Notes under the pieces: model-generated
The model's input: the letters and a program-made list of their open reading frames with translations, nothing else
Databases searched by the model: none
What the model was told of the DNA's origin: nothing
Translations under genes and position numbers: made by a program
Shown here: piece by piece, positions 3,939 through 33,922 of the stretch
Numbering within the stretch: the first letter of the stretch is position 1
Layout: every line of letters starts with the position of its first letter
Assembly (NCBI RefSeq): GCF_013378075.1
Contig: NZ_CP051131.1
Span: 2,926,501-2,990,500 of the forward strand
Reading direction: 5' to 3'
Source of the DNA: Parasphingopyxis algicola
Lineage (GTDB): Bacteria > Pseudomonadota > Alphaproteobacteria > Sphingomonadales > Sphingomonadaceae
Length of the DNA: 64,000 nt

Positions 3939-3990
3939 ATGACGGCAATGTTACGAGCGCGTGATCCTCATGTTGCGGTTATGTGACAAA
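3939..3990 (-). promoter_or_regulatory. Possible PhoB-type boxes upstream of the porin
   Basis: Read on the minus strand, TTGTCACATAACCGCAACA (3970-3990) and CGTAACATTGCCGTCATA (3939-3957) each resemble two 7-bp half-boxes with a 4-bp spacer, the layout of a Pho box (CTGTCAT-N4-CTGTCAT). Each has one degenerate half. The call rests mainly on context: phoU and a phosphate porin nearby. Confidence 0.35.
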
Positions 3991-4047
3991 CAAATCCCCA
4001 CAAATATATTGCAATGTTGGAGATTTTCGCTTCCCTGTATCCGGGCC

Positions 4048-4947
4048 ATGAAGAACCGCACGCCCGTCATCTGCGATCGCTGCCGCCGCACCGGCTATCT
4101 CGGCGAGGGCGCGTTCGCCGATCTCGCCCCCGCGCTCGATTTCGCGCCCGTCCCCCGCCAATGCAAGCGCCATGACGGCTGGACGCCCGAGCGGCAGCGC
4201 GGCTTTATCGAGGCGCTTGCGCGCACCGGCTCGGTTACCCGCGCCGCCGCGGCCGTCAACATGGCCAAGGAAGGCGCCTACCAGCTCCGCCTCCACCCGG
4301 AGGCCGACAGCTTCCGCGCCGCCTGGGAGAAGGCGCTCGATTTCGGCACCCACATCCTCGCCGACGCCGCGCTCGACCGCGCGATCCACGGCGTCCCCAT
4401 CCCGATCATGCATCGCGGCAAGCAGGTCGCCGAGCGCCGCACCTATAATGAGCGCCTCACCATGTGGCAGCTCCAGCACCGCATGCCCGGCCGCTACGGC
4501 AAGCCCGGCGGCGCGGGCACCAAGTCCCGGGAGACCCGCTCGCGCGACGACTGGGAGGCGCGCGAGCCCGATCGCATGCGCGCGCTCGTGATCATGGTCA
4601 CCCATTATTGCAACCGCGTGCAGATCGAGCGGGAAAAGCGCCGCGCCGGCGATACGGAGGCCGCCGATTTCTACGCGCGCCAGCTCACGCATCTGGAGGT
4701 GTTGCTGGAGACCGGCGGCAAGGCGCACGACCTGATCGACATCGCCAACGGCGAGCGCGATCCCGACCGCCCCTGGCGATACGCGAACGGCGACGAGGTC
4801 GAGCGCACCAAACTCACCGACGTCCTCGCCGATATCCGCGACAAGGCCTGGCAGGCCGCCGAGCGCGGCGAAGACCTGCTCGACCAGAGCGGCCATCAGG
4901 CCGAGCTGCGGGCGATCGCGGACAGGGCGCGGGGGGAGGGGGATTGA
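4048..4947 (+). CDS. Uncharacterised protein with N-terminal HTH-like segment
   Basis: A 299-residue protein that I do not recognise as a named family. The start at 4048 (MKNRTPVICDRC) is chosen over an in-frame start at 3961, which would begin inside the AT-rich divergent promoter region. The N-terminus has CDRCRRTG, a CxxC pair. Residues about 45-85 (WTPERQRGFIEALARTGSV then RAAAAVNMAKEGAYQLR) look like a helix-turn-helix of the kind in phage terminase small subunits or resolvase-like HTHs. The rest is charged and helical (KRRAGDTEAADFYARQLTHLE), ending in an acidic/basic tail. It is divergent from the porin and lies 46 bp before the DUF4160 remnant. Its GC content matches the host. A DNA-binding or accessory role is inference only. 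Confidence 0.6.
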   Translation: MKNRTPVICDRCRRTGYLGEGAFADLAPALDFAPVPRQCKRHDGWTPERQRGFIEALARTGSVTRAAAAVNMAKEGAYQLRLHPEADSFRAAWEKALDFGTHILADAALDRAIHGVPIPIMHRGKQVAERRTYNERLTMWQLQHRMPGRYGKPGGAGTKSRETRSRDDWEAREPDRMRALVIMVTHYCNRVQIEREKRRAGDTEAADFYARQLTHLEVLLETGGKAHDLIDIANGERDPDRPWRYANGDEVERTKLTDVLADIRDKAWQAAERGEDLLDQSGHQAELRAIADRARGEGD

Positions 4948-4961
4948 AGAGGCAGATTGCC

Positions 4962-4982
4962 ATAGTGCAATCATTGCACTAT
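4962..4982. promoter_or_regulatory. Perfect 21-bp palindrome, probable operator of the DUF4160/DUF2442 module
   Basis: ATAGTGCAAT-C-ATTGCACTAT is a perfect 10-bp inverted repeat around one base, ending 11 bp before the DUF4160 start codon. This placement suits a dimeric HTH repressor. The neighbouring DUF2442-HTH protein is the obvious candidate binder. Confidence 0.55.
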
Positions 4983-4995
4983 ACCGTAGCGGTAT
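4981..4995. promoter_or_regulatory. Inverted repeat overlapping the DUF4160 start codon
   Basis: ATACCG-TAG-CGGTAT overlaps the end of the 21-bp palindrome and the first bases of the ATG at 4994. It could be a second operator half or an mRNA hairpin that masks translation initiation. Confidence 0.4.
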
Positions 4996-5134
4996 GCCCC
5001 GGCTGATGCGCTTCTCCAATTGCGAGATCGCCATGTTCTTTGCCGATCACAACCCGCCGCATTTCCATGTGCTCGGGCGCGATGGGCAGGCGCATTCCCC
5101 TCCCCTCGATGGGGAGGGGTCAGGGGTGGGGTGA
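4994..5134 (+). pseudogene. Truncated DUF4160 gene, interrupted by a palindromic repeat
   Basis: The ATG at 4994 opens a frame starting MPRLMRFSNCEIAMFFADHN and continuing PPHFHVLGRDGQA, which is the hallmark N-terminal half of DUF4160 proteins (DHNPPHFHV). After about 33 residues the frame runs into a repeat element and stops at 5132-5134 after HSPPLDGEGSGVG. The usual C-terminal half of the family (about 40-50 more residues) is absent, and no matching remainder follows the repeat. DUF4160 genes commonly sit directly upstream of DUF2442 genes, as here, and the pair has been suspected to act together. This copy is probably non-functional, or makes a 46-residue N-terminal fragment. Confidence 0.7.
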
Positions 5135-5203
5135 TCCGTCGGCTGGCGATTGTGTATGCGGATAGATCACCCCCATCCAACCTTCCCCCATCAAGGGGGA
5201 AGG
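5097..5203. repeat. REP/MITE-like inverted repeat inserted in the DUF4160 gene
   Basis: The left arm (5097-5135, CCCCTCCCCTCGATGGGG then AGGGGTCAGGGGTGGGGTGAT) and right arm (5166-5203, ATCACCCCCATCCAACC then TTCCCCCATCAAGGGGGAAGG) are imperfect reverse complements around a short spacer. Each arm is itself a small hairpin (CCCTCCCC-TCGAT-GGGGAGG). The element at 39301-39418 has the same architecture. Confidence 0.8.
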
Positions 5204-5232
5204 CTTTGCTGCGAATTTAGCGGAGACGATCA

Positions 5233-5679
5233 ATGAGCATCGGCAAGATCACAGCGGCGGTCGTGAAAGATGGGGCGCGGCGGGGCAGTAGAATCGCGCT
5301 CGAATGGGATGATGGCTATACCGGGATCGTCGATCTCACGCCCGTCATAGCCGCGCACAAGGCGCTGGCGCCGCTCGCCGATGCCGATGCCTTTCGCGAT
5401 TTTCAGATTGCCGGGGATGGCTGGTCGATCGAATGGAGCTGCGGCGTCGATTTCGGCAGCGAGCAGCTCCACCGCTGGGCGCGCGAACAGGCCGGTGAGA
5501 TCATGCCGGCACGCGCCTTCCGCGCCTGGATGCAGCGCCACGACATGACGCTCGACGCCGCCGCCCAGGCCCTCGGCCTCTCACGGCGAACGATTGCGTA
5601 CTATTTGAGCGAGGAGCAGGTGATCCCGAAAACGGTGATGCTGGCGACCGAGGGCTATGATGGTAGGCGGGCGGCTTAA
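5233..5679 (+). CDS. DUF2442 domain protein with C-terminal helix-turn-helix
   Basis: A 148-residue protein. Residues about 5-80 form a DUF2442-type domain (ALEWDDGYTGIVDLTPVIA; FRDFQIAGDGWSIEWSCGVDFG). Residues about 98-130 form an XRE-like HTH (ARAFRAWMQRHDMTLDAAAQ then ALGLSRRTIAYYLSEEQVIP). A GGAGA ribosome binding site lies 8 bp upstream of the ATG. The architecture resembles an antitoxin or autorepressor: a small domain joined to a DNA-binding domain, encoded behind a small DUF4160 partner and a palindromic operator at 4962-4982. The partner is truncated by a repeat, so this protein may now be an orphan regulator. Family assignment is reasonably secure; function is inference. Confidence 0.72.
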   Translation: MSIGKITAAVVKDGARRGSRIALEWDDGYTGIVDLTPVIAAHKALAPLADADAFRDFQIAGDGWSIEWSCGVDFGSEQLHRWAREQAGEIMPARAFRAWMQRHDMTLDAAAQALGLSRRTIAYYLSEEQVIPKTVMLATEGYDGRRAA

Positions 5680-5735
5680 AATTAGATAATTGCAGCTTCA
5701 TGCATTTTATATAGAGAAGACGAAGGGGCGTACAC

Positions 5736-6560
5736 TTGGCAAAAAATTCTCGTATCGAATGGACGACACACACATTTAATCCTTGGTGGGGATGTGTGAA
5801 AGTGTCACCAGCTTGCAAGCATTGTTATGCTGAATCTTGGTCAAAAAGAGTTGGCAGCAAAGTATGGGGCATAGGTGCAGAAAGACGATTCTTTAGCGAT
5901 AAGCACTGGAGCGAACCACTAAAGTGGGATGCCGAGGCTAAAGAGCAAAACGAACGGGCGAGAGTATTCTGCGCTTCAATGGGAGATGTTTTTGAAGACC
6001 GTCGTGACTTAGATGAATCGCGCGAACGCCTTTGGTCACTGATCCAATCGACCCCAAACCTTGACTGGCTACTCTTAACTAAACGGATCGAATTGGTGAA
6101 AGAACTGGCCCCATGGAAAGACGAATGGCCTGAAAACGTCTGGTTAGGAACTACGGTTGAAGACCAAAAGCGCGCGAATGAGAGGTTGCCGCATTTACAA
6201 TCCATTCCCGCAAAGGTCCGATTTATTTCCGCAGAGCCGCTTTTAGGCCCAATCAGTATCGATAGATGGCTAGACGACAGCCTTGATTGGGTGATCACAG
6301 GCGGGGAGAGCGGCCCTAAAGCACGCCCTTCGAATCCGGCTTGGTTCCGAGACTTGATGAACCAATGTATGGCCTATGATGTTGCGTTTCATTTCAAACA
6401 GTGGGGCGATTGGGCTCCGGGCCAAGGCATCGCTTTGGCCAAGGCGCGCCAAATGGTACTGGAAGATGGTACGACCATGCACCGCCTAGGCAAAAAACAT
6501 GCTGGACGGGAACTGGATGGAGAGACTTGGAATGGCTTACCGAAAGTAATAACAGCTTAG
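5736..6560 (+). CDS. Three-Cys-motif protein, DUF5131 / phage Gp37-Gp68 family
   Basis: A 274-residue protein starting at TTG 5736, with an AAGGGG ribosome binding site just upstream and AT-rich promoter-like sequence (TATATA at 5708-5713). The N-terminus reads RIEWTTHTFNPWWGC, then six residues, C, two residues, CYAESW. This is a Cx6CxxCYA cluster, reminiscent of the NPxxGCxxxCxYCYAR cluster of spore-photoproduct-lyase-like radical SAM proteins. Later blocks (RVFCASMGDVFED, WLLLTKR, VWLGTTVEDQ, KVRFISAEPLLGP, WVITGGESGPKARP) are typical of DUF5131. These proteins occur in phages and in mobile two-gene cassettes with TcmP, as here (2-bp gap). The enzymatic role is unknown; Fe-S/radical SAM-like chemistry is inference. 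Base composition is AT-richer than the surrounding genes, suggesting transfer. Confidence 0.85.
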   Translation: MAKNSRIEWTTHTFNPWWGCVKVSPACKHCYAESWSKRVGSKVWGIGAERRFFSDKHWSEPLKWDAEAKEQNERARVFCASMGDVFEDRRDLDESRERLWSLIQSTPNLDWLLLTKRIELVKELAPWKDEWPENVWLGTTVEDQKRANERLPHLQSIPAKVRFISAEPLLGPISIDRWLDDSLDWVITGGESGPKARPSNPAWFRDLMNQCMAYDVAFHFKQWGDWAPGQGIALAKARQMVLEDGTTMHRLGKKHAGRELDGETWNGLPKVITA

Positions 6561-6562
6561 GC

Positions 6563-7423
6563 ATGCCGCGTCTCTTCTCGAAAGAAGAAATACCTGAACT
6601 AACAGTGCAAGCTGAAAAGAATTTCGCTTCGCTCAAATATCCCGTTTGGACAGAGAGCAAAGCGAAACTCATCCAAGAGTACATCCGCTTATTCACCTTC
6701 ATTACCAAACATGGAACGTACATTGACGGCTTTGCCGCGCCTCAGCGGCGGGATAGATTGGACCTGTGCTCAGCAAACCTAGTCCTGCAAACTGAACCAA
6801 AATGGCTTCGTGATTTTTGGCTGTGTGACATCGATCCTGCCGGTTGCGCTATCTTGGACAATATTGCCGAGCCACATCGCGATCAGGGGCGATCGGTGAG
6901 CGTATTGGAAGGAGACTTCAATCGTAGGGTCGATGACGTTTTGTTATCCGGACAAATTACTGAGAGAACGGCAACCTTTGCATTACTGGATCAAAGAACA
7001 TTTGAATGCGAATGGGCGTCTGTGCAAAAAATTGCATCTCACAAAGTATCGATGAAAATCGAAATCTTCTATTTTCTAGCGACGGGCTGGCTTGACCGCT
7101 CCATCGCAGCAGTCCGTCGGCACGACACGAAAGCTCGCCTTGATCGATGGTGGGGCGCACCGAACTGGACAGCGCTGAGAGGAATGAACAGCATCGACAG
7201 GGCCTATTTATTGGCTGATCGGTTTAGAACAGAGTTTGGCTATAAATTCGTCCATCCATATGCGATCCATGGACGCGCACGTGGAGGAAGAACAATGTAC
7301 CATATGATACACGCTACTGATCATGCTGAGGCTTCCCCACTGATGTTGAGAGCGTATCGGAAAATTTCTGGCGCGCTGAGCAATCGTGAAATGCGCCAAG
7401 ACGATTTCGAGAGCCTTTGGTAG
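6563..7423 (+). CDS. tcmP: Three-Cys-motif partner protein TcmP
   Basis: A 286-residue protein starting at ATG 6563, two bases after the DUF5131 stop, so the pair is probably co-translated. It resembles the three-Cys-motif partner family. It has a methyltransferase-like N-terminal pattern (ITKHGTYIDGFAAPQRRD, then WLCDIDPAGC), a central strand that in relatives carries a DP-type motif but here reads ATFALLDQRTFECEW, then KIEIFYFLATGWLDRS, and a C-terminal VHPYAIHGRARGGRTMYHMI. The partner name reflects consistent co-occurrence with DUF5131-like proteins; biochemical function is not established. Its low GC matches DUF5131 and differs from both flanks, marking the two genes as one acquired unit. 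It converges on lepA. Confidence 0.82.
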   Translation: MPRLFSKEEIPELTVQAEKNFASLKYPVWTESKAKLIQEYIRLFTFITKHGTYIDGFAAPQRRDRLDLCSANLVLQTEPKWLRDFWLCDIDPAGCAILDNIAEPHRDQGRSVSVLEGDFNRRVDDVLLSGQITERTATFALLDQRTFECEWASVQKIASHKVSMKIEIFYFLATGWLDRSIAAVRRHDTKARLDRWWGAPNWTALRGMNSIDRAYLLADRFRTEFGYKFVHPYAIHGRARGGRTMYHMIHATDHAEASPLMLRAYRKISGALSNREMRQDDFESLW

Positions 7424-7460
7424 ACTGCTATTTTCGTTTCTCGTCTTCAAAAACATCTTC

Positions 7461-7490
7461 CCGATTCATCTTTTTCACTTCTAGAATCGG
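7461..7490. terminator. Inverted repeat between tcmP and lepA
   Basis: CCGATTC (7461-7467) and GAATCGG (7484-7490) could form a 7-bp stem with a 16-nt loop between the convergent tcmP and lepA genes. There is no clear T-run after it. It may be a weak terminator or the scar at the right edge of the island. Confidence 0.3.
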
Positions 7491-7494
7491 CAAT

Positions 7495-9315
<1,821 letters not shown>

Positions 9316-9467
9316 TACCCGCGCCCTTTAGCATGGGTGGCGCGGGTGTCATCCGCCAATTCTAGCCTCCTAGCATTGACGACGTTGGTCGTAATTAATA
9401 TCCCGGCCGGAACGGTGGCGACCGAAAGGGGATCGGAATCCACTGGGCGAAAGCGATCGGCAATGCT

Positions 9468-10904
9468 GTGGCGCTGTTGGCCATGACCGGTTTTGCCGCG
9501 CCGGCGGCGCGGGCGCAGGGCGAAGAAGCGTCGATCTGGGCGGAACTGGCGCAGGGCGATCTGGAGGCCATGCGCGATCTGCTCGCCGAAAACCATCCCG
9601 GCCCCGTCGATCCGGAGAACAGCCGCTATGGCGAATGGCTGCGCGAGGGCTTTGCCGAGGCCTCGCGGCGGGCCGAAGCCGCCGGATCCCTTGCCGATTA
9701 CGAGCGGGCGCTGCGCTATTTCGTCAACGGCTTTCGCGACGGCCATATCGGGCTCGGCCTCGCCTATCAGCCGCGCGTCTATTCCTGGCCCCGTTTCCTC
9801 GTCCGGCGCGCGTCCGGCGGGGAGGCGAACATCGTCTTCCATTCGCGTATCGACGCCATTCCCGAAGGCGCGGAACTGGAGTCCTGCGACGGACAGACGG
9901 TCGACACCCTGCTCGCCGAACGCATCGATCCCTATTATTTCAACGCCGATATACCGCACACGCGCAGCCGCAACGTGCCCCGTCTGTTCACCCTCGATCC
10001 GGGCGACGAGGATCGGCAATTCCGGCAATGCGCCTTCCGCATCGACGGCGAGACACGGACGATCGATCTGGAATGGAGCCGACTGTCCGCGCGGACGCGG
10101 ACGGACCTCTTCGCACAGATACGGTCGGACCGTCCCAAACTCGGGATCCGGGAAAGCGGCGATATGGTCTTTGTCGGCCTGCCCAGTTTCGTGCAGACCG
10201 GATCGGGCGCGCGGGCCATGCAGTCCCTGATCGACGAAATCGCTGCCAGGCGAGACGAACTTCGCGGCCGGACGGTGGTGTTCGACGTGCGCGGCAATGG
10301 CGGCGGCAACAGCGCCTGGGGGGTTGGCGTCGCGCAAGCCCTGTTCGGCGCGGAATGGGTAAGCCGGATCAACGGCAGTTTCGACAATAGCGTTGATTGG
10401 CGCGTTTCGGAGTCGAACATCGCGCACCTGGAATGGGTCATCGAGACGGTTCGCAATGACGGGCTGGAAGAGGCGGCCGAATTTTTCGGCGAAGCGCGCG
10501 ATCTGATGGTTGCGGCGCAAGCCCGTGGCGACGCGCTGGCGCGTGCACCGGCAACGGGTGTCGCGCCTGCCGGGCCGCCGCCGCCTAACCCGATCACCGG
10601 CCGGGTCTATTTCCTGACGGATTCGCGATGCGGCAGCGCCTGCCTGGATTTCGCCGACCTGATGCTCCGGCTTCCGGCGGTCACGCATATCGGCCTGCCG
10701 ACCTTTGCCGATGCGGTCTATATCGACAACGCCACCGCGCCGCTGCCGAGTGGCCTTGCGCGTTTTTCCTATTCGCTGAAAGTATGCCGGAACCGGGTTC
10801 GTGCGAACAACGAATTCTATACACCCGAAATCCTCTGGCCCGGCGGCCCGATGACCGATGCCGCCATCACGGTCTGGATCGGCGAACTGGCGCTTGAATG
10901 CTAG
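9468..10904 (+). CDS. Secreted S41-family peptidase-like protein (tail-specific-protease fold)
   Basis: About 478 residues from a GTG at 9468. The N-terminus is odd. The hydrophobic signal segment begins upstream of the GTG (in-frame HWAKAIGNAVALLAMTGFAA then PAARAQ) but no ATG, GTG or TTG precedes it before the stop at 9396. An AAAGGGG ribosome binding site lies before an ATC at 9438, so either an ATC start or a mutated start is possible. The mature domain shows S41-like strands: FRDGHIGLGL (about 95), VVFDVRGNGGGNSAWG (about 275) and the serine region VYFLTDSRCGSACLDFADLM (about 385). Two cysteines in the serine loop and one near the C-terminus may be disulphide-bonded. It is likely a periplasmic protease or relative; substrate unknown. 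Confidence 0.75.
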   Translation: MALLAMTGFAAPAARAQGEEASIWAELAQGDLEAMRDLLAENHPGPVDPENSRYGEWLREGFAEASRRAEAAGSLADYERALRYFVNGFRDGHIGLGLAYQPRVYSWPRFLVRRASGGEANIVFHSRIDAIPEGAELESCDGQTVDTLLAERIDPYYFNADIPHTRSRNVPRLFTLDPGDEDRQFRQCAFRIDGETRTIDLEWSRLSARTRTDLFAQIRSDRPKLGIRESGDMVFVGLPSFVQTGSGARAMQSLIDEIAARRDELRGRTVVFDVRGNGGGNSAWGVGVAQALFGAEWVSRINGSFDNSVDWRVSESNIAHLEWVIETVRNDGLEEAAEFFGEARDLMVAAQARGDALARAPATGVAPAGPPPPNPITGRVYFLTDSRCGSACLDFADLMLRLPAVTHIGLPTFADAVYIDNATAPLPSGLARFSYSLKVCRNRVRANNEFYTPEILWPGGPMTDAAITVWIGELALEC

Positions 10905-10931
10905 CGAACCACCGGGGGGCGGCCTTATCCG

Positions 10932-11633
10932 CTATTCGCGGACATTGGCGACATTATATTCGTAGGCCTCGTCCTGGGTCAGGCAGCGGCGGGTTTCACC
11001 GTCTCCGACCGCCTGGGTCGCGTACATGACTTCGCGCAGCAGCCGCCGCGAGACACCCATGCGGATCAGGAAATCATTGTCCTCGGTCGCGAGCTGCGCG
11101 CTCGATTGCTCGATCTCGCCGATCAGTTCGACCGTATTCTCGGTGCCGGCCTCCACTTCCTGGCGGATGACGTCGCGATTGCCGGTATGGGTGAACATAT
11201 GGACCATGAACTGGCCTTCGGGTTCGACGATCCGCACCATGCCGCCCATGAACACGAAATTGCAGGCCGAAAAACACGCCCAGCCCGACGGGATGCGGGT
11301 CACGATGCCGGGGAATTCGGAACGCAGCATCCGGCCGGCTTCATTGCCGGCATAGGCATCCCCGCCCGGCGAACGCAGCCAGATTTCGGAAATCCGGTCG
11401 TCGGACTGGAGCGCATCGCGCAGCCGGTTGGCGAGACCGGCCGTAATCATGCCTTCGGCCAGCAGGACGCGCTGGTCGCTGCGATCGATCGGCGTCAGGG
11501 TCATCACCTGGTTCGCCGCCCAGTTGGGCGAGACCGGGCATGTCGGATTGGGATTGTCCGATTGCGCGCCCGGCGCCGCGCTGGCGCAGAGCATGACCGC
11601 ACCGAACGCGAGATAGGACCGGAAACGGTTCAT
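10932..11633 (-). CDS. Periplasmic ClpP-fold protein (COG3904-like)
   Basis: A 233-residue protein with a signal peptide (MNRFRSYLAFGAVMLCASAA). The core carries crotonase/ClpP-fold marks: ISEIWLRSPGGDAYAGNEAG, then a cysteine-rich serine turn IPSGWACFSACNFVFMGG, then EGQFMVHMFTH. Proteins of this class look like ClpP subunits without an ATPase partner and are exported. Activity has generally not been shown. It is the second gene of a two-gene unit, 3 bp after the 17 kDa-like protein. A second COG3904-like protein lies at 17260-18039. The fold call is reasonable; function is unknown. Confidence 0.72.
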   Translation of the reverse strand: MNRFRSYLAFGAVMLCASAAPGAQSDNPNPTCPVSPNWAANQVMTLTPIDRSDQRVLLAEGMITAGLANRLRDALQSDDRISEIWLRSPGGDAYAGNEAGRMLRSEFPGIVTRIPSGWACFSACNFVFMGGMVRIVEPEGQFMVHMFTHTGNRDVIRQEVEAGTENTVELIGEIEQSSAQLATEDNDFLIRMGVSRRLLREVMYATQAVGDGETRRCLTQDEAYEYNVANVRE

Positions 11634-11636
11634 CGT

Positions 11637-12164
11637 TCAGGCAGCCAGCACATACCGCGTTTGAGGCGGAACGCGGCACATCGTCTTCGGAACCGTCGTT
11701 TCCTCTCCATCGACGATGATTACGTCGGTGACCTGCAGGCAATCGCCGCCGCTGGCCTGCTGAGTGCGACCGGTTACCGTCGATCGGCCGCGCACGCCGT
11801 CGCGGGTATCGCTCGTCCATTCGGCGGTCGAACCGATCTCGCCGCTGCGCGTGACCTCGGCGGTCGCCGTCGCCGCCTTTTCCTGCTCTTCCGGACTCAA
11901 CCGGCAGGCGATTTCGGTCGCCAGCGTATCGGCGAATTGGGCGGAGGGTACAAAGGTGGGAATGCCGAGTTCCCGAGCCGCGCCGCCCAGCAGCCCGCCG
12001 ATGATCGATCGGCCGGCCGACTCGCCCGCCGTATCGCAATGGTTTGCATCGTCGCTGGAACTGGACGAGCGACCGCCCAAAATCCCGCCAAACTGAAATG
12101 CCGCCACCGGCTGTGCGGCTAGGGCGGCCACGAAAACCGCTGCCGCAACGCTCCTGATCTGCAT
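11637..12164 (-). CDS. Exported protein with 17 kDa-surface-antigen-like C-terminal domain
   Basis: A 175-residue protein. The ATG at 12164 is preferred because GGGGAGAAG lies just upstream. The signal peptide is MQIRSVAAAVFVAALAAQPV. A Gly/Ser-rich stretch follows (FQFGGILGGRSSSSS, SIIGGLLGGAA). The C-terminal 60 residues (STAEWTSDTRDGVRGRSTV, GGDCLQVTDVIIVDGEE, KTMCRVPP) have the strand-Cys-strand-Cys pattern of the Rickettsia 17 kDa antigen/RlpB-type tail domain. Four cysteines are present in the mature protein. It is translated ahead of the ClpP-fold protein and is divergent from the CsgG-like gene, with a palindrome between them. It is probably an envelope protein; the exact role is unknown. 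Confidence 0.6.
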   Translation of the reverse strand: MQIRSVAAAVFVAALAAQPVAAFQFGGILGGRSSSSSDDANHCDTAGESAGRSIIGGLLGGAARELGIPTFVPSAQFADTLATEIACRLSPEEQEKAATATAEVTRSGEIGSTAEWTSDTRDGVRGRSTVTGRTQQASGGDCLQVTDVIIVDGEETTVPKTMCRVPPQTRYVLAA

Positions 12165-18227: not shown

Positions 18228-18304
18228 CGGGGAGTAGCTCAGCCAGGTAGAGCACTGTCTTCGGGAGGCAGGGGCCGGAGGTTCGAATCCTCTCTCCCCG
18301 ACCA
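18228..18304 (+). tRNA. tRNA-Pro (anticodon CGG)
   Basis: A complete 77-nt cloverleaf. Acceptor CGGGGAG/CTCCCCG; D-arm GCTC...GAGC; anticodon arm CTGTC-TTCGGGA-GGCAG, giving anticodon CGG for proline codon CCG; five-base variable loop; T-arm GGAGG-TTCGAAT-CCTCT; encoded ACCA end. A T-rich run (GTTTTTT) follows at once and may help termination. No integrase or att-like duplication is seen next to it. Confidence 0.95.
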
Positions 18305-26140: not shown

Positions 26141-26940
26141 TGGCCGGCGATTTCTTCGAAGGGAAGGTTGCGATCGTCACCGGCGGCAGCCAGGGGATCG
26201 GCGCGGCGACGGTGCGCGCAATCGCCGCACGCGGCGCGCAGGTCGTGATCAACTATGTGTCGAGTGCGGATCTCGCCGAAGAGCTGCGCGACGAGATCGG
26301 CGAGAAAGCGATAGCCGTGCAGGCCGACCTCAGCGCGGGCGAGGCGAACACGCTCGCCGAAGCCGCGCTCGACAAATGGGGCCGCATCGATTGTCTCGTC
26401 AACAATGCCGGCAAGACCGCCTTCGCCAATCATGAGGATCTCGACGCGCTGAGCGCCGACGATTTTCTCGACATCTACCGGCTCAACGTCGTCGGCGCGT
26501 ACGAAATGATCCGCGCCGTCGCGCCGTCGATGCAGGCGAGCGGCAGCGGCGCGATCGTGAATGTCACCTCGGTCGCCGCGCATTACGGGATCGGGTCGTC
26601 GGTCGCCTATGCGGCCTCGAAAGGGGCGCTGCTGACGATGACCTATTCGCTCGCCCGTGCGCTTGCCCCTGAGATCCGCGTCAATGCAATCAGCCCGGGC
26701 TATGTCGGTACCGGCTGGTTCACGAACCGGCTCGGCGAAGAGGCCAAGCTCGCCATCGACCGGCATTTCGAGGAAACGACGCCGCTCAGGCGTGCCGGCA
26801 CGGCGGAGGATATCGCCGACATGATTATACCGCTGCTCGACGATGCTTCGCGGCACATGACGGGGCAGGCGATCGTGGTGGATGCCGGTTCGCATCTCGA
26901 TGTCGGCAGTTCGCGTCGCAAGGGGAAAGAGGAGTTATAG
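26140..26940 (+). CDS. Short-chain dehydrogenase/reductase (third of three in operon)
   Basis: A 266-residue SDR translationally coupled to the preceding SDR. TGGSQGIGAATVRAI is the glycine motif, NNAGKTAFANHEDL the NNAG motif, the catalytic serine lies in VNVTSVAAHYGIG and YAASK is the active-site tetrad element. The C-terminus is GQAIVVDAGSHLDVGSSRRK. All three SDRs retain complete catalytic motifs, so none appears decayed. Three tandem SDRs with a kinase and an aldo-keto reductase suggest a multi-step hydroxy/keto acid pathway. Confidence 0.88.
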   Translation: MAGDFFEGKVAIVTGGSQGIGAATVRAIAARGAQVVINYVSSADLAEELRDEIGEKAIAVQADLSAGEANTLAEAALDKWGRIDCLVNNAGKTAFANHEDLDALSADDFLDIYRLNVVGAYEMIRAVAPSMQASGSGAIVNVTSVAAHYGIGSSVAYAASKGALLTMTYSLARALAPEIRVNAISPGYVGTGWFTNRLGEEAKLAIDRHFEETTPLRRAGTAEDIADMIIPLLDDASRHMTGQAIVVDAGSHLDVGSSRRKGKEEL

Positions 26941-29912: not shown

Positions 29913-31688
29913 CTACGCGATCGCTTCCTCTTTCGCGCCGACGCCGAAATAGAGGTTCGGCAGATCTTTCTTGAGGATCTTGCCATTGGCGTTGCGCGGC
30001 AGTGTCTCCTCGACGAACACGATCTTCACCGGAACCTTGAACTTGGCGAGCCGCTCGGCGACCCAAGCCTGCAATTCCGCTTCGCCGACGTCGTGGCCGG
30101 GCGCCAGATGGACGACCGCGGCCGGTTCCTCGCCGAGTTGCTTGTGCGGAATGCCGACCAGCGCCGCATCGGTGACGGCCGGATGGTCGTAGAGCACGTT
30201 TTCGACCTCGGACGAATAGATATTCTCGCCGCCGCGGATGATCATGTCCTTGGCGCGGTCGCAAATATAGCAGAAACCCTCTTCGTCGAGCTTGGCGAGA
30301 TCGCCGGTACGGATCCAGCCGTCGACGAAGGTTTCCTCGTTCGCTTCCGGCTTGTTCCAATATTCGCGCACGACCATCGCGCCATAGGCCCAAAGCTCGC
30401 CGATCTCGCCGGTCGGCAATTCGCGCGTGCCATCTTCGGACATGATCTTGAGCTTGGCGACGGGAACGGGTGGACCGCAACTGTCCGGCCGGTTGAGATA
30501 GTCTTCCGCGCTGTGACCGGTCACCGTGCCCGACGTTTCCGTCATCCCCCAGCCCATGGCGGGCGAGGAATTGAACTCGCTCTTGATCTTGCGCACCAGA
30601 TCCGGCGACGCAGGCGCGCCGCCATAGGTGATGCTGTTGAGGCTCGAGAGATCATATTTGTCGCGATCGGGATGTTCGAGGATCTGCCAGGCGATGGTCG
30701 GGACGCCGCCGGTCAGCGTGACCTTTTCGCGCTCGATGATCTCCATCGCGCGAACCGTGTCCCATTTGTGCATCAGCACCAGTTTCGATCCGCCGGCGAT
30801 GATCGGGCCCATCATCGCCGTGCATCCGGTGACGTGGAACAGCGGGATGACAAGCAGCACGCACATCGGTTCGGGCAGCGTGCCCGGCGGCGGCAGCTCT
30901 TCGCCCCGCCGCAATGCGCCGCGCGTGGTCGCATAGGCGGAGGACAGAAGATTGGTCAGCGAGTTGCGATGCGTCGCGACCGCGCCTTTCGGCTTCCCGG
31001 TCGTGCCGCTCGTGTAGAGGATGGACGCATCGGTCTCGGGGCCGATATCCGCGGCGGGGAAGTCCGTGTCGGGGAGATCGGCCCAGTCATGGCTCTTGCC
31101 GATCAGGTCGGTCAGCGCCACCACGCCTTGGTCGAGCGGGCCGCCAGGACGCGTCACGATGATCTTTTCGATCCCCGGAAGGTTGCCGAGATGCGGTTTG
31201 ATCCGCTCATAGCGTTCACCGTCGGCGATCAAGGCCTCTGCGCCCGAATCCTGAAGGCCATATTCGAGCTCGCCGCCCGTCCACCAACCGTTGAGCGGCA
31301 CGGCGATCGCGCCGATCGAGAGTGTGGCGAAATAGATGACGGGCCATTCGGGCAGATTGCGCGCCGCCAGCGCGACCCGGTCGCCCTTCTCGACGCCCAT
31401 CTCGCGCAGCTTGTGAGCCAGGGTCGCCGAGGCCTTGAACCAGGCGTCATAGGTCACCCGTTCGTCTTCGAAAACGATGAATTCGCGGTCGCCGAAAGCG
31501 GCGCGGGCAAGCCGGGCGAAATCGGCGAAAGTCGGCGGTATGCTCTTCCATACGGTCGTCGGCCGGCCGTTGATCTCGACCTCTTCGGTGGCAAAGGGGC
31601 TGCCCTCGGACGTCAGCATCGCATTTGCCTGGGCAAGCGATATGACCGGCCAGTCGGGATGGTCGGGATTCAGGTTGATTTCCGTCAC
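29913..31688 (-). CDS. AMP-dependent acyl-CoA synthetase (fatty-acyl/aromatic-acyl CoA ligase)
   Basis: A 591-residue ANL-superfamily enzyme. GTG 31688 is the chosen start because GGAGAGA lies 7 bp upstream; an in-frame GTG at 31703 sits inside that ribosome binding site. Motifs: P-loop ILYTSGTTGKPKGAVATHRN (A3), MGWGMTETSGTVTGH (A5), DGWIRTGDLAKLDEEGFCYI (A7-A8 region), DRAKDMIIRGGENIYSSEVE (hinge) and LPRNANGKILKKDL (A10 lysine). It activates a carboxylic acid to its CoA ester via an acyl-AMP. The length is normal for long-chain or aromatic acid ligases. It is divergent from the fadJ-like gene. Confidence 0.91.
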   Translation of the reverse strand: MTEINLNPDHPDWPVISLAQANAMLTSEGSPFATEEVEINGRPTTVWKSIPPTFADFARLARAAFGDREFIVFEDERVTYDAWFKASATLAHKLREMGVEKGDRVALAARNLPEWPVIYFATLSIGAIAVPLNGWWTGGELEYGLQDSGAEALIADGERYERIKPHLGNLPGIEKIIVTRPGGPLDQGVVALTDLIGKSHDWADLPDTDFPAADIGPETDASILYTSGTTGKPKGAVATHRNSLTNLLSSAYATTRGALRRGEELPPPGTLPEPMCVLLVIPLFHVTGCTAMMGPIIAGGSKLVLMHKWDTVRAMEIIEREKVTLTGGVPTIAWQILEHPDRDKYDLSSLNSITYGGAPASPDLVRKIKSEFNSSPAMGWGMTETSGTVTGHSAEDYLNRPDSCGPPVPVAKLKIMSEDGTRELPTGEIGELWAYGAMVVREYWNKPEANEETFVDGWIRTGDLAKLDEEGFCYICDRAKDMIIRGGENIYSSEVENVLYDHPAVTDAALVGIPHKQLGEEPAAVVHLAPGHDVGEAELQAWVAERLAKFKVPVKIVFVEETLPRNANGKILKKDLPNLYFGVGAKEEAIA

Positions 31689-31870
31689 GTAAACTCTCTC
31701 CACAAGAATAGGCCGGTAGATTCGCGAATCCCCGGCTTCTGGCTTTTGTTCTAGCTATGGCGCGCGGGGATTAATCTCAAGGGCGCAAGCCGGTTTCCGT
31801 AACGACAGCCTTGCCAGCGCCCCGGGCGATGCGCGACAAGAGAAAGAAAAACCCTGCAGGAGTTTTCCCG

Positions 31871-33922
31871 ATGTCCGTGATCACCACCGAACGTCATGAC
31901 GACGTACTCGTCATCATCTCCGACAATCCGCCGGTCAACGCACTCGGCGCAGCCGTTCGCCAGGGGCTGGTCGACGGCATCGACGAGGCACTGGGCGACG
32001 ATAGCGTCAAGGCCGTCGTCATCCGCTGCGAAGGCCGCACCTTTTTCGCCGGCGCCGACATCACCGAATTCGGCAAACCGATGCAGGGGCCGAACCTCGG
32101 TGAGGCGCTCGACAAGCTCGAGGCGAGCGACAAACCGGTCGTCGCCGCCATTCACGGCACGGCGCTGGGCGGTGGATGCGAGGTGGCGCTGGCCTGCCAC
32201 TACCGGGTGGCGGTTCCGTCGGCGAAGCTCGGACTGCCCGAGGTCAAGCTCGGGTTGATACCGGGCGCAGCGGGAACGCAGCGTCTGCCGCGCATCGTCG
32301 GCGCGGAAGCGGCCTTGCCCCTGGTGGTCGTCGGCAATCCGATCTCCGCGAAAAAGGCGGAGAGCATCGGCCTTGTCGATGCGATCGTCGGCGAAGGCAG
32401 CCTCGCCGAGGACGCGATTCGCTTCGCCCGCGACCAGATCGGCAAGCCGGTTCCGCGTGCAAGCGAAGGCACGGCCAATCGCGACGGCGTCGAAAACCCG
32501 GCTATATTCGACGAATTCCGCGCCAAACATGGCCGCAAGTTGCGCGGTTTCGATGCACCCGAGGCCGGCATCCAGGCGGTCAAGGCGGCCGGCGAATTGT
32601 CCTACGAAGAGGGCGTCAAGAGGGAGCGCGAACTCTTCATGGGGCTGATGGCGGGCACGCAGTCGGCCGCCATGCGCCATTATTTCTTCGCCGAGCGCGC
32701 GGCGAACAAGATCGAGGGGATCGCCAAGGATATCGAGCTGATCCCGATCAGGAAGGTCGGCGTGATCGGCGCCGGCACGATGGGCGGCGGTATCTCGATG
32801 AACTTCCTGTCGGCCGGCATTCCGGTGACGATCCTCGAAATGGAGCAGGAAGCGCTCGATCGCGGCACCGGGGTGATGCGCAAGAATTACGAGCGCACGG
32901 CCAAGCGCGGCCGGATGACGGACGAGCAGGTTGAGCAGGCGATGGGCCTGCTCTCACCGACGCTCGATTATGCCGATCTCGCCGATTGCGATCTCGTGAT
33001 CGAGGCGGTGTTCGAGAATATGGATGTGAAGAAACAGGTCTTCGCCAAGCTCGACGAGACGGTGAAACAGGGCGCGATCCTCGCGTCGAACACCAGCTAT
33101 CTCAATGTCGACGAGATCGCGACCGCGACCAGCCGGCCCGACCATGTGCTGGGCCTGCACTTCTTCTCGCCCGCCAACGTCATGAAGCTGCTCGAGGTCG
33201 TGCGCGGCGACAAGACGGCGGACGACGTGCTCGCCACTTGCATGAAGCTTGCCAAGAAGATCGGCAAGATCGCGGTCGTCGCCGGGGTGTGCGACGGCTT
33301 TATCGGCAACCGGATGCTCAGCCCGCGCCAGCAACAGGCCAATGCGCTGATCATGGAAGGCGCGAATTACTGGGAAGTCGACGAGGTATTGCTCGATTTC
33401 GGTTTTCCGATGGGGCCGTTCCAGATGTCCGATCTCGCCGGCCTGGATATCGGCTGGCATCGTGACCCGACCCGGATCGAGAGCATCCGCGACGCGCTGT
33501 GCGCGATGGACCGGCGCGGCCAGAAAACGGGTGCCGGTTTTTACGATTATGACGAGGCGCGCCAGCGCACGCCGTCCGACGATGTGAAGAAAGTGATCGC
33601 CGACTTCGCGGAGAAGCAGGGTGTCGAGCAGCGCGAAATCTCGAAAGAGGAGATTCAGGAACGGCTGCTCTACCCGATGGTCAATGAGGGCGCGCTGGTC
33701 CTCGAAGAGGGGATGGCGCAGCGCGCGAGCGATATCGATGTCGTCTGGATCAACGGCTATGGCTGGCCGCTCTATACCGGCGGTCCGATGTTCTGGGCCG
33801 ATACGATCGGGCTCGATACCGTCGTCGCGGGTCTCGACAAGCATCGCGACAGGCTGGGCGAGAATTTCCGGCTGTCGCAGCTGCTGGCCGACAAGGCAGG
33901 GGCAGGCGAGAAGTTCAATTGA
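31871..33922 (+). CDS. FadJ-type bifunctional enoyl-CoA hydratase / 3-hydroxyacyl-CoA dehydrogenase
   Basis: A 683-residue multifunctional beta-oxidation protein, ATG 31871 with AGGAG 9 bp upstream. The N-terminal crotonase domain shows [13 protein letters not shown] and [17 protein letters not shown] (oxyanion loops) and [20 protein letters not shown] with both catalytic glutamates. The dehydrogenase domain starts at about 300 with [35 protein letters not shown], the HAD signature [20 protein letters not shown] and the C-terminal [11 protein letters not shown]. It catalyses hydration and NAD-dependent oxidation of enoyl-CoAs. The thiolase partner is not adjacent but is present at 43669. Confidence 0.93.

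Follow-up and report, generated by a model that had tools for sequence, protein, structure and literature searches.

A DUF5131-TcmP gene pair beside lepA in Parasphingopyxis algicola: a predicted nucleic-acid-modifying cassette, probably directed against phages

Introduction

Among the models of the PADLOC database are phage defence candidates (PDC), which excerpts of the source describe as predictions (PMC11514479). One of them, PDC-M41, is matched by two adjacent genes, DUF5131 and TcmP, that lie next to the core gene lepA in Parasphingopyxis algicola (contig NZ_CP051131.1, positions 2,926,501 to 2,990,500). This whole stretch of 64,000 nucleotides is called the window, and positions are counted from its first letter; handles beginning with G and L are our own for genomes and loci. 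The window's DUF5131 protein matched PDC-M41B with 202.3 bits and TcmP matched PDC-M41A with 33.4 bits, an assignment that rests on bit scores and adjacency and was judged apart from PADLOC's own cut-offs and distance rule. Since the pair is already a PADLOC candidate, a defence role is not a new guess. The present work adds assignments of both enzymes, a measure of how strongly they are paired, the position in phages behind a repressor, and the pocket beside lepA. In the literature searched, mostly outside subscription journals, we found no functional test of DUF5131 or TcmP, and no paper was found for DUF5131 or PDC-M41 by name. A second point of comparison is offered by phage CarolAnn, in which genes co-expressed with the repressor exclude other phages, according to partial text of PMC6426606.

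Our analysis suggests that the pair is an acquired two-enzyme nucleic-acid-modifying cassette that most likely acts against phages, a function predicted from sequence to which we give a probability of roughly 0.65.

A foreign pair of genes

The two genes are arranged as follows.

5736-6560, plus strand: DUF5131 gene, TTG start, 274 amino acids; PF07505 at 282.7 bits against a gathering score of 28.9
6563-7423, plus strand: TcmP gene, 286 amino acids; TIGR04474 at 136.7 bits against a curated cut-off of 53

An earlier note on this DNA had placed the two genes 2 bp apart, which was confirmed by the coordinates (last base of the DUF5131 stop codon at 6560, TcmP ATG from 6563) and by family scores over the cut-offs. 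It had also described a base composition far below that of the flanks, and our measurements agree: the GC content of 5690-7423 was 0.491, as compared to a mean of 0.648 (standard deviation 0.019) and a minimum of 0.580 in 583 segments of equal length elsewhere in the 64 kb. GC at third codon positions was 0.476 and 0.495 for the two genes and 0.860 for lepA. Following the note's proposal to look for presence or absence at the syntenic place, we compared 16 relatives from 9 genera, 8 of them genomes of the same genus, at the lepA 3' flank and found the pair in none. Fifteen of these relatives had no DUF5131 match anywhere, and the remaining one (G004) has a match on a different contig. Among 30 genomes, several of them fragmented assemblies, no DUF5131 match lay within 13 kb of lepA on the same contig. 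The 49% GC, and 16 relatives without the pair at the syntenic place, indicate that it was acquired and is accessory.

Linkage of DUF5131 and TcmP across genomes

The distribution of both genes was surveyed in an order sample of 197 genomes and a phylum sample of 398, each of which counts the window's own genome. DUF5131 was present in 31 of the 197 genomes, and the TcmP model was matched in 23, above cut-off in 18. DUF5131 adjoined TcmP in 17 of these 18, counting G026, where TcmP is split; the exception, G084, has the two genes on separate contigs. TcmP above cut-off occurred in 24 of the 398 phylum-sample genomes (27 matches), and in all 24, DUF5131 and a TcmP match were no more than 500 bp apart; the three additional TcmPs were in these clusters too, at 0.6-1.5 kb from DUF5131. 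DUF5131 itself was found in 41 of the 398 (40 above cut-off), and no genome of either sample had TcmP over cut-off without DUF5131. The conserved pairing that had been proposed for these genes thus holds in both samples.

We also collected relatives of the pair at 58 loci, 53 from GTDB contigs and 5 from IMG/VR, a count that holds two almost identical couples (L112/L114 and L116/L160) and, apparently, one phage twice (L105 and L164). The partner gene lay within 600 bp in 51 loci and at 903 bp in one, and was not seen in six, of which four start at a contig end (L123, L128, L141, L159), one is a fragment (L127) and one had no TcmP open reading frame (ORF) called (L135). The 51 pairs comprised 38 in tandem with DUF5131 first, 2 in tandem with TcmP first and 11 on opposite strands. 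This variety of order and orientation suggests that the tie between the genes is not merely one inherited operon. The closest relatives, with 44-64% identity in TcmP, were scattered over Gluconacetobacter, Methylorubrum, Azospirillum, Bosea, Novosphingobium, and others.

Some loci departed from the simple arrangement. Gluconacetobacter liquefaciens has two unlike TcmPs that face each other (L107, second one at 10880-11998), and G786, G812 and G861 each have two TcmPs near one DUF5131. At L198 (G026, 8123-9888), an open DUF5131 is preceded by two TcmP fragments separated by about 0.8 kb, apparently a disrupted pair. A TcmP with 64% identity came from a 13-kb record labelled as a Lactiplantibacillus plantarum plasmid (L103, NZ_CP110863.1), in which a TIR-like protein and a serine recombinase were recognized by eye and which looks like a mislabelled alphaproteobacterial contig.

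Genes surrounding related pairs

The neighbours of related pairs were scanned with PADLOC at E <= 1e-15. Around 17 of the 20 closest loci 102 models were matched among 134 ORFs, and around the pairs of order relatives 94 among 123, compared with 10 among 140 ORFs from 15 arbitrary stretches. Neighbours of related pairs thus gave about ten times more PADLOC models than the control, a ratio that counts models and, as one protein can match many of them, overstates the number of proteins, which weakens the case for defence to that extent. The closest-loci set was made with a crude ORF caller, and a distance cut at 5.2 kb reduced it from 155 ORFs to 134. It includes the second TcmP of L107; L111, L114, L117 and the viral loci were omitted as being short contigs or near duplicates, and L127-L159 are also outside it. 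The order-relative set holds 123 of 144 ORFs, with L185 and part of L184 left out, and shares one locus with the former (L115 = L183). The control covers 140 of 183 ORFs and 15 of 18 stretches (one block removed).

Among the neighbour matches listed (25 of the 102 and 25 of the 94) were proteins of type I, II, IIG and III restriction-modification, as well as DarT, DarG, MzaA, Drt8, PbeA, mad2 and PDC-M45, and two neighbour ORFs were MvaI/BcnI-type nucleases. The matches in the control stretches were mad3, BrxH, DpdJ, SngC, E1-E2, mad8 and a nicking endonuclease. The pair of plasmid pNOCA01 is flanked by an N6 methylase-AAA-McrC cluster and by a UvrD and AAA pair. In Sinorhizobium meliloti a TcmP gene, SMa2243, has a locus tag near that of the defence gene Hna, SMa2245, as given in excerpts of PMC12445080. 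The enrichment near defence genes that the earlier note had named as a check was therefore seen, and the two outcomes that it had listed as contrary, presence in all relatives with host-like composition and lack of association with mobile or defence loci, were not.

Three further features of these neighbourhoods were recorded. Genes resembling adenylosuccinate synthetase and RNase_H adjoin the pair at two loci from two genera (L109, 4986-9029; L113, 2702-5670), each type accounting for 2 of the 134 neighbour ORFs. At L109 a weakly dCTP-deaminase-like gene (E 0.003) also lies beside the pair. The PADLOC models PDC-M45B and PDC-M45C were matched by three neighbour ORFs each.

The pair in phages

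DUF5131-like frames were found in 150 of 50,697 phage records. In all five TcmP-bearing Gordonia phage records examined (BaxterFox, Fairfaxidum, ThankyouJordi, Easley and Bosnia), TcmP stood directly behind the immunity repressor; both proteins were profile-confirmed in all five, with a TcmP profile that had L105 (BaxterFox) among its training sequences. The gene order was integrase, DUF5131, TcmP facing DUF5131, and the immunity repressor on the TcmP strand. In BaxterFox (L105, 6948-8292) the annotation places genes 39-41 on one strand and the DUF5131 frame is read from the other (6960-7973, minus strand), so the gene calls of this record probably miss DUF5131.

These occurrences bear on a different explanation, in which the pair is a modification cassette of prophages or other mobile elements that marks or protects their own nucleic acid, as in anti-restriction or lysogeny, and brings no particular benefit to the host. 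The presence of the pair in phages and IMG/VR prophage contigs, the number of phage records with DUF5131-like frames, D12-class adenine methyltransferases among the neighbours (3 of 134 ORFs) and a gene resembling a terminase small subunit at 3961-4947 of the window are in keeping with such self-marking. On the other hand, the pair of the five Gordonia phages stands behind the repressor, at the same place as the CarolAnn genes proven to be exclusionary (again from partial text of PMC6426606), the chromosomal and plasmid pairs lie among restriction-modification, DarTG and DRT genes, and no phage gene besides the terminase-like one was seen in 3961-9315. We therefore consider self-marking rather unlikely, and a defence purpose the more probable of the two.

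Predicted enzymatic activities

The structure model of TcmP (predicted local distance difference test, pLDDT, of 86; 41 sequences) had RlmJ as its best PDB match (E 4.5e-5, template modelling (TM) score 0.45), followed by other methyltransferases dependent on S-adenosylmethionine (SAM). No solved structure was found for TcmP by sequence, alone or as a profile; one match of that search, to a designed-looking protein at E 0.09, was taken as chance. Against RlmJ-like proteins, hhalign gave 93.9% (E 1.5e-7) for the broad TcmP set and 71.6% for the subfamily set, compared with 0.1% for the DUF5131 control. The six template proteins are presumably RlmJ, a name that we assigned from their N-terminal motif. 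Five of the six are sub-threshold TIGR04474 matches from the order sample, so the TIGR04474 family model itself reaches RlmJ. Substitutions K18A and D164A abolish the activity of RlmJ, and D143 and E118 hold its cofactor, according to excerpts of PMC3814359. In the hhalign alignment K18 and D164 correspond to K33 and D143 of TcmP, both present in 41/41 members; at the other aligned positions D118 is found in 40/41 and D or E at 89 in 41/41. TcmP likely, but not certainly, has an ordinary SAM site, and it may work like RlmJ, yet is not RlmJ.

DUF5131 carries the cysteine motif C20-x6-C27-x2-C30 (codons within 5793-5825), and the three cysteines, together with EP, GGESG and KQWG, are invariant in 40/40 members. 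Its Cx6Cx2C loop is three residues longer than the canonical Cx3Cx2C of radical-SAM proteins, so the canonical motif is absent; other radical-SAM families have variant motif spacings. All 40 members matched rSAM_mob_pairA (NCBIfam, TIGR04471) at E <= 0.01 and below the curated cut-off, the best at 5e-25. With hhalign, DUF5131 gave 36% (E 4e-4) against the group of the host radical-SAM protein L208, compared with 0.6% for the TcmP control, in a test that was not blind, as this subgroup was chosen after a motif resemblance had been seen and the DUF5131 alignment was widened simultaneously. We take the L208 group to be spore-photoproduct-lyase-like. The structure model reached a pLDDT of 90, and its Foldseek list consisted largely of TIM-barrel proteins, among them the viperin-like 9dfn and lipoyl synthase (all E > 0.001). 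A viperin-like DUF5131 was rejected: 9dfn led the 50 matches shown by TM-score (0.44), though with E 0.01, and the sequence points elsewhere. No solved structure was found for DUF5131 by sequence, alone or as a profile. Altogether, DUF5131 is probably radical-SAM-like.

These relationships would also fit a housekeeping or stress pair that modifies rRNA or tRNA or repairs nucleotides and is carried on islands by chance. TcmP is related to RlmJ, a ribosomal housekeeping enzyme, and the radical-SAM group that aligns with DUF5131 is present in 73 of 142 class-sample genomes. Such a role is improbable in view of the patchy occurrence of the pair among order-level genomes (DUF5131 in 31/197 and TcmP over cut-off in 18/197) and its strong linkage to defence genes.

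Proposed function

We favour an acquired anti-phage cassette, in which TcmP, as an RlmJ-type Rossmann methyltransferase, would transfer a methyl group to N6 of adenine in RNA or DNA, and DUF5131 would then treat the same substrate by radical chemistry, or the two steps would occur in reverse order. SAM is expected to serve both enzymes, in keeping with sequential action on one substrate. The outcome against a phage would be RNA or DNA that is marked or crippled. Host N6-methyladenine (m6A) in RNA is reported to influence T5 infection: an rlmF rlmJ mutant was less susceptible to T5, and other T phages and lambda were unaffected (partial text of PMC11619597). This effect makes the class of substrate plausible, although its direction there is opposite.

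A bolder variant, which is speculative and rather unlikely as it stands, is a so far undescribed immunity at the epitranscriptomic or nucleotide level. TcmP would methylate rRNA, tRNA or phage message and DUF5131 would rebuild the base or sugar, and the hypermodified nucleotide would block phage translation or replication. Prophages would express the same two-step modification behind their repressor and so exclude competitors.

Several observations weigh against an anti-phage cassette of two SAM enzymes. DUF5131 was without TcmP in five phage records (Squirty, Confidence, prophiT48-1, CP2 and ZS04; no TcmP in the stretch), four of which have it near recombination or single-strand-binding genes, and 16 of the 40 phylum-sample genomes with DUF5131 over cut-off had no TcmP over cut-off. 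As it often occurs without TcmP in genomes and phages, DUF5131 as such is no mark of defence. The window's TcmP subfamily is rare, being matched in 2 of 385 class-sample genomes including its own, the other at E 8e-4. The structural match to RlmJ is moderate (TM 0.45, root-mean-square deviation 7.7), and motif I of TcmP is unusual in this subfamily, reading FAAPQ in the window with Ala for Gly at residue 59 in 11/41 members, so cofactor binding may differ. For DUF5131, hhalign against a mixed set of 12 host radical-SAM proteins showed no signal and did not exceed the TcmP control, Pfam Radical_SAM had no match at E <= 1, and Foldseek of the model gave no PDB match with E <= 0.001.

On balance the earlier suggestion of a defence or nucleic-acid-modifying cassette is supported, with the function itself predicted. 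The likely active sites named here (K33/D143 and three cysteines) turn an "unknown function" into a defined experiment.

The accessory pocket beside lepA

The features around the pair are the following.

4994-5098, plus strand: DUF4160 N-terminal remnant (DhiT-like), PF13711 at 23.4 bits against a cut-off of 23
5095-5212, strand not applicable: palindromic repeat of about 118 bp that interrupts DUF4160 after about 33 codons, folding z -4.1
5233-5679, plus strand: DUF2442 gene, DhiA-antitoxin-like, left neighbour outside the pair, PF10387 at 37.6 bits
5680-5735, plus strand: AT-rich leader from DUF2442 to DUF5131, forming the left end of the block that was acquired; the G001 locus is similar up to 5677
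7424-7494: AT-rich tail from TcmP to the lepA stop codon and right end of the acquired block; similarity to relatives starts at 7486-7499
7495-9315, minus strand: core gene lepA, with its 3' end next to the accessory pocket, LepA_C at E 1e-50

The earlier note had described a degraded DUF4160/DUF2442 module beside lepA. The DUF4160 remnant and lepA are as described; DUF2442 proved to be an open gene above the Pfam cut-off, so the degradation is confined to DUF4160. It has sub-threshold helix-turn-helix matches near its end, and the antoxin_DhiA model gave 24 bits, under its cut-off. The DhiTA toxin-antitoxin system is a pair of DUF4160 and DUF2442 domains, according to excerpts of PMC8198452. 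The DhiTA-like remnant, the tight two-gene architecture and the mobility of the pair would suit a unit of toxin-antitoxin-like or abortive type, with one enzyme harmful to the cell upon infection and a second restraining the first. We regard this as very improbable, because the models of both members are enzyme-like and putative active-site residues are conserved in each, no toxin or antitoxin family was matched by either protein in our scans, and gene order and orientation vary. The four proteins scanned in 3961-7423 included no nuclease family, so the locus does not qualify as restriction-modification. The palindromic repeat had 18 matches at about 13 separate places of the genome, its own copy counted.

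Of 30 genomes, 29 gave a lepA match of full or almost full length (72-95% identity), and the 30th, G006, had only a paralogue-like match. The space beside it varied among the relatives: in G001 the same DUF2442 gene is followed after about 215 bp by lepA, without the pair, and in G009 the gap from porin to lepA is just 167 bp. We scanned 17 chosen pocket ORFs with PADLOC, again at E <= 1e-15. The pockets contained an HNH nuclease (G002, 285 bits), a Dcm-like type II methyltransferase and Vsr (G005), Drt3a and Drt3b of DRT3 (G004), PDC-M66A and PDC-M66B plus a weaker HNH (G007), NsnA (G015, 268 bits) plus a weaker HNH, and a HEC-05-like protein (G011, 83 bits); a weak PifA match in G013 (54.6 bits, E 1.8e-15) fell just short of the threshold. 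Five of the 17 ORFs had no match. Matches were thus obtained in 6 of 16 pockets, 4 of them among the 8 same-genus relatives, and none in G001, G003, G008-G010, G012, G014, G016 and G017, for which one ORF was scanned (G014) and the others were judged by eye. With defence-model matches in 6 of 16 pockets, the lepA 3' flank is a defence hotspot of this group, in which the window pair sits. Together with the occurrences in phages and plasmids, this variable flank supports the horizontal mobility and the small accessory pocket of the earlier note. Reading the pocket in further members makes the lepA 3' flank of this genus a place to find more defence genes.

The terminase-small-subunit-like gene stands alone in the window's pocket (phrog_4044, 48 bits), and DNA resembling its region sits between the porin region and lepA in G005 and G007. 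The sole tRNA in the window is at 18228, with none at the site of the pair, and no duplicate of the lepA 3' tail, a mark of integration, was found in the window. No integrase was noticed among the ORFs of the window and the relatives' flanks, where no family-level search was made. Relics of lepA 3' tails were found in three same-genus pockets (L061, 7380-7459; L067, 9444-9521; L069, 4781-4849, 4944-4997 and 754-809, in window orientation). Four of the five relics align slightly better to the lepA tail of another species than to that of their host, and the fifth is nearest to its own. The closer likeness to foreign lepA suggests that pocket content may be exchanged through lepA homology rather than by an integrase. 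In G025, contig C12 carries the LepA C-terminal region twice, about 5 kb apart (26302-26901 and 31433-32032), the second copy being a 279-codon frame with 87-88% identity to that of the window.

Comparison with known systems

Within PDC-M41, the window's TcmP is a distant member of PDC-M41A (33 bits), and PDC-M30B is a further PADLOC model for DUF5131. The TcmP protein resembles RlmJ, the 23S rRNA A2030 N6-methyltransferase, which is its best PDB fold match and whose catalytic Lys and motif IV Asp are kept. It differs from RlmJ in that the window protein has no N-terminal MNYRH..HAGN segment (motif X tail), that motif IV reads DQ in 32/41 and DP in 9/41 members instead of the DPPY of RlmJ, and that it is mobile and paired with DUF5131. 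The window's DUF5131 scored 40.7 bits against TIGR04471, radical SAM mobile pair protein A, whose cut-off is 355. In its alignment with the L208/L218 radical-SAM group of the host, an N-P..GC..C..CYA segment holding the cluster cysteines and an LTKR segment stand in register. Finally, the prophage defence pairs beside a repressor, CarolAnn 43/44 and lambda RexAB, likewise consist of two genes, and in Gordonia phages the DUF5131-TcmP pair is also found behind the repressor. CarolAnn 43/44 encode a membrane protein and a DUF4747-like protein, unlike DUF5131-TcmP, as described in partial text of PMC6426606, and are likened to it by position and number of genes.

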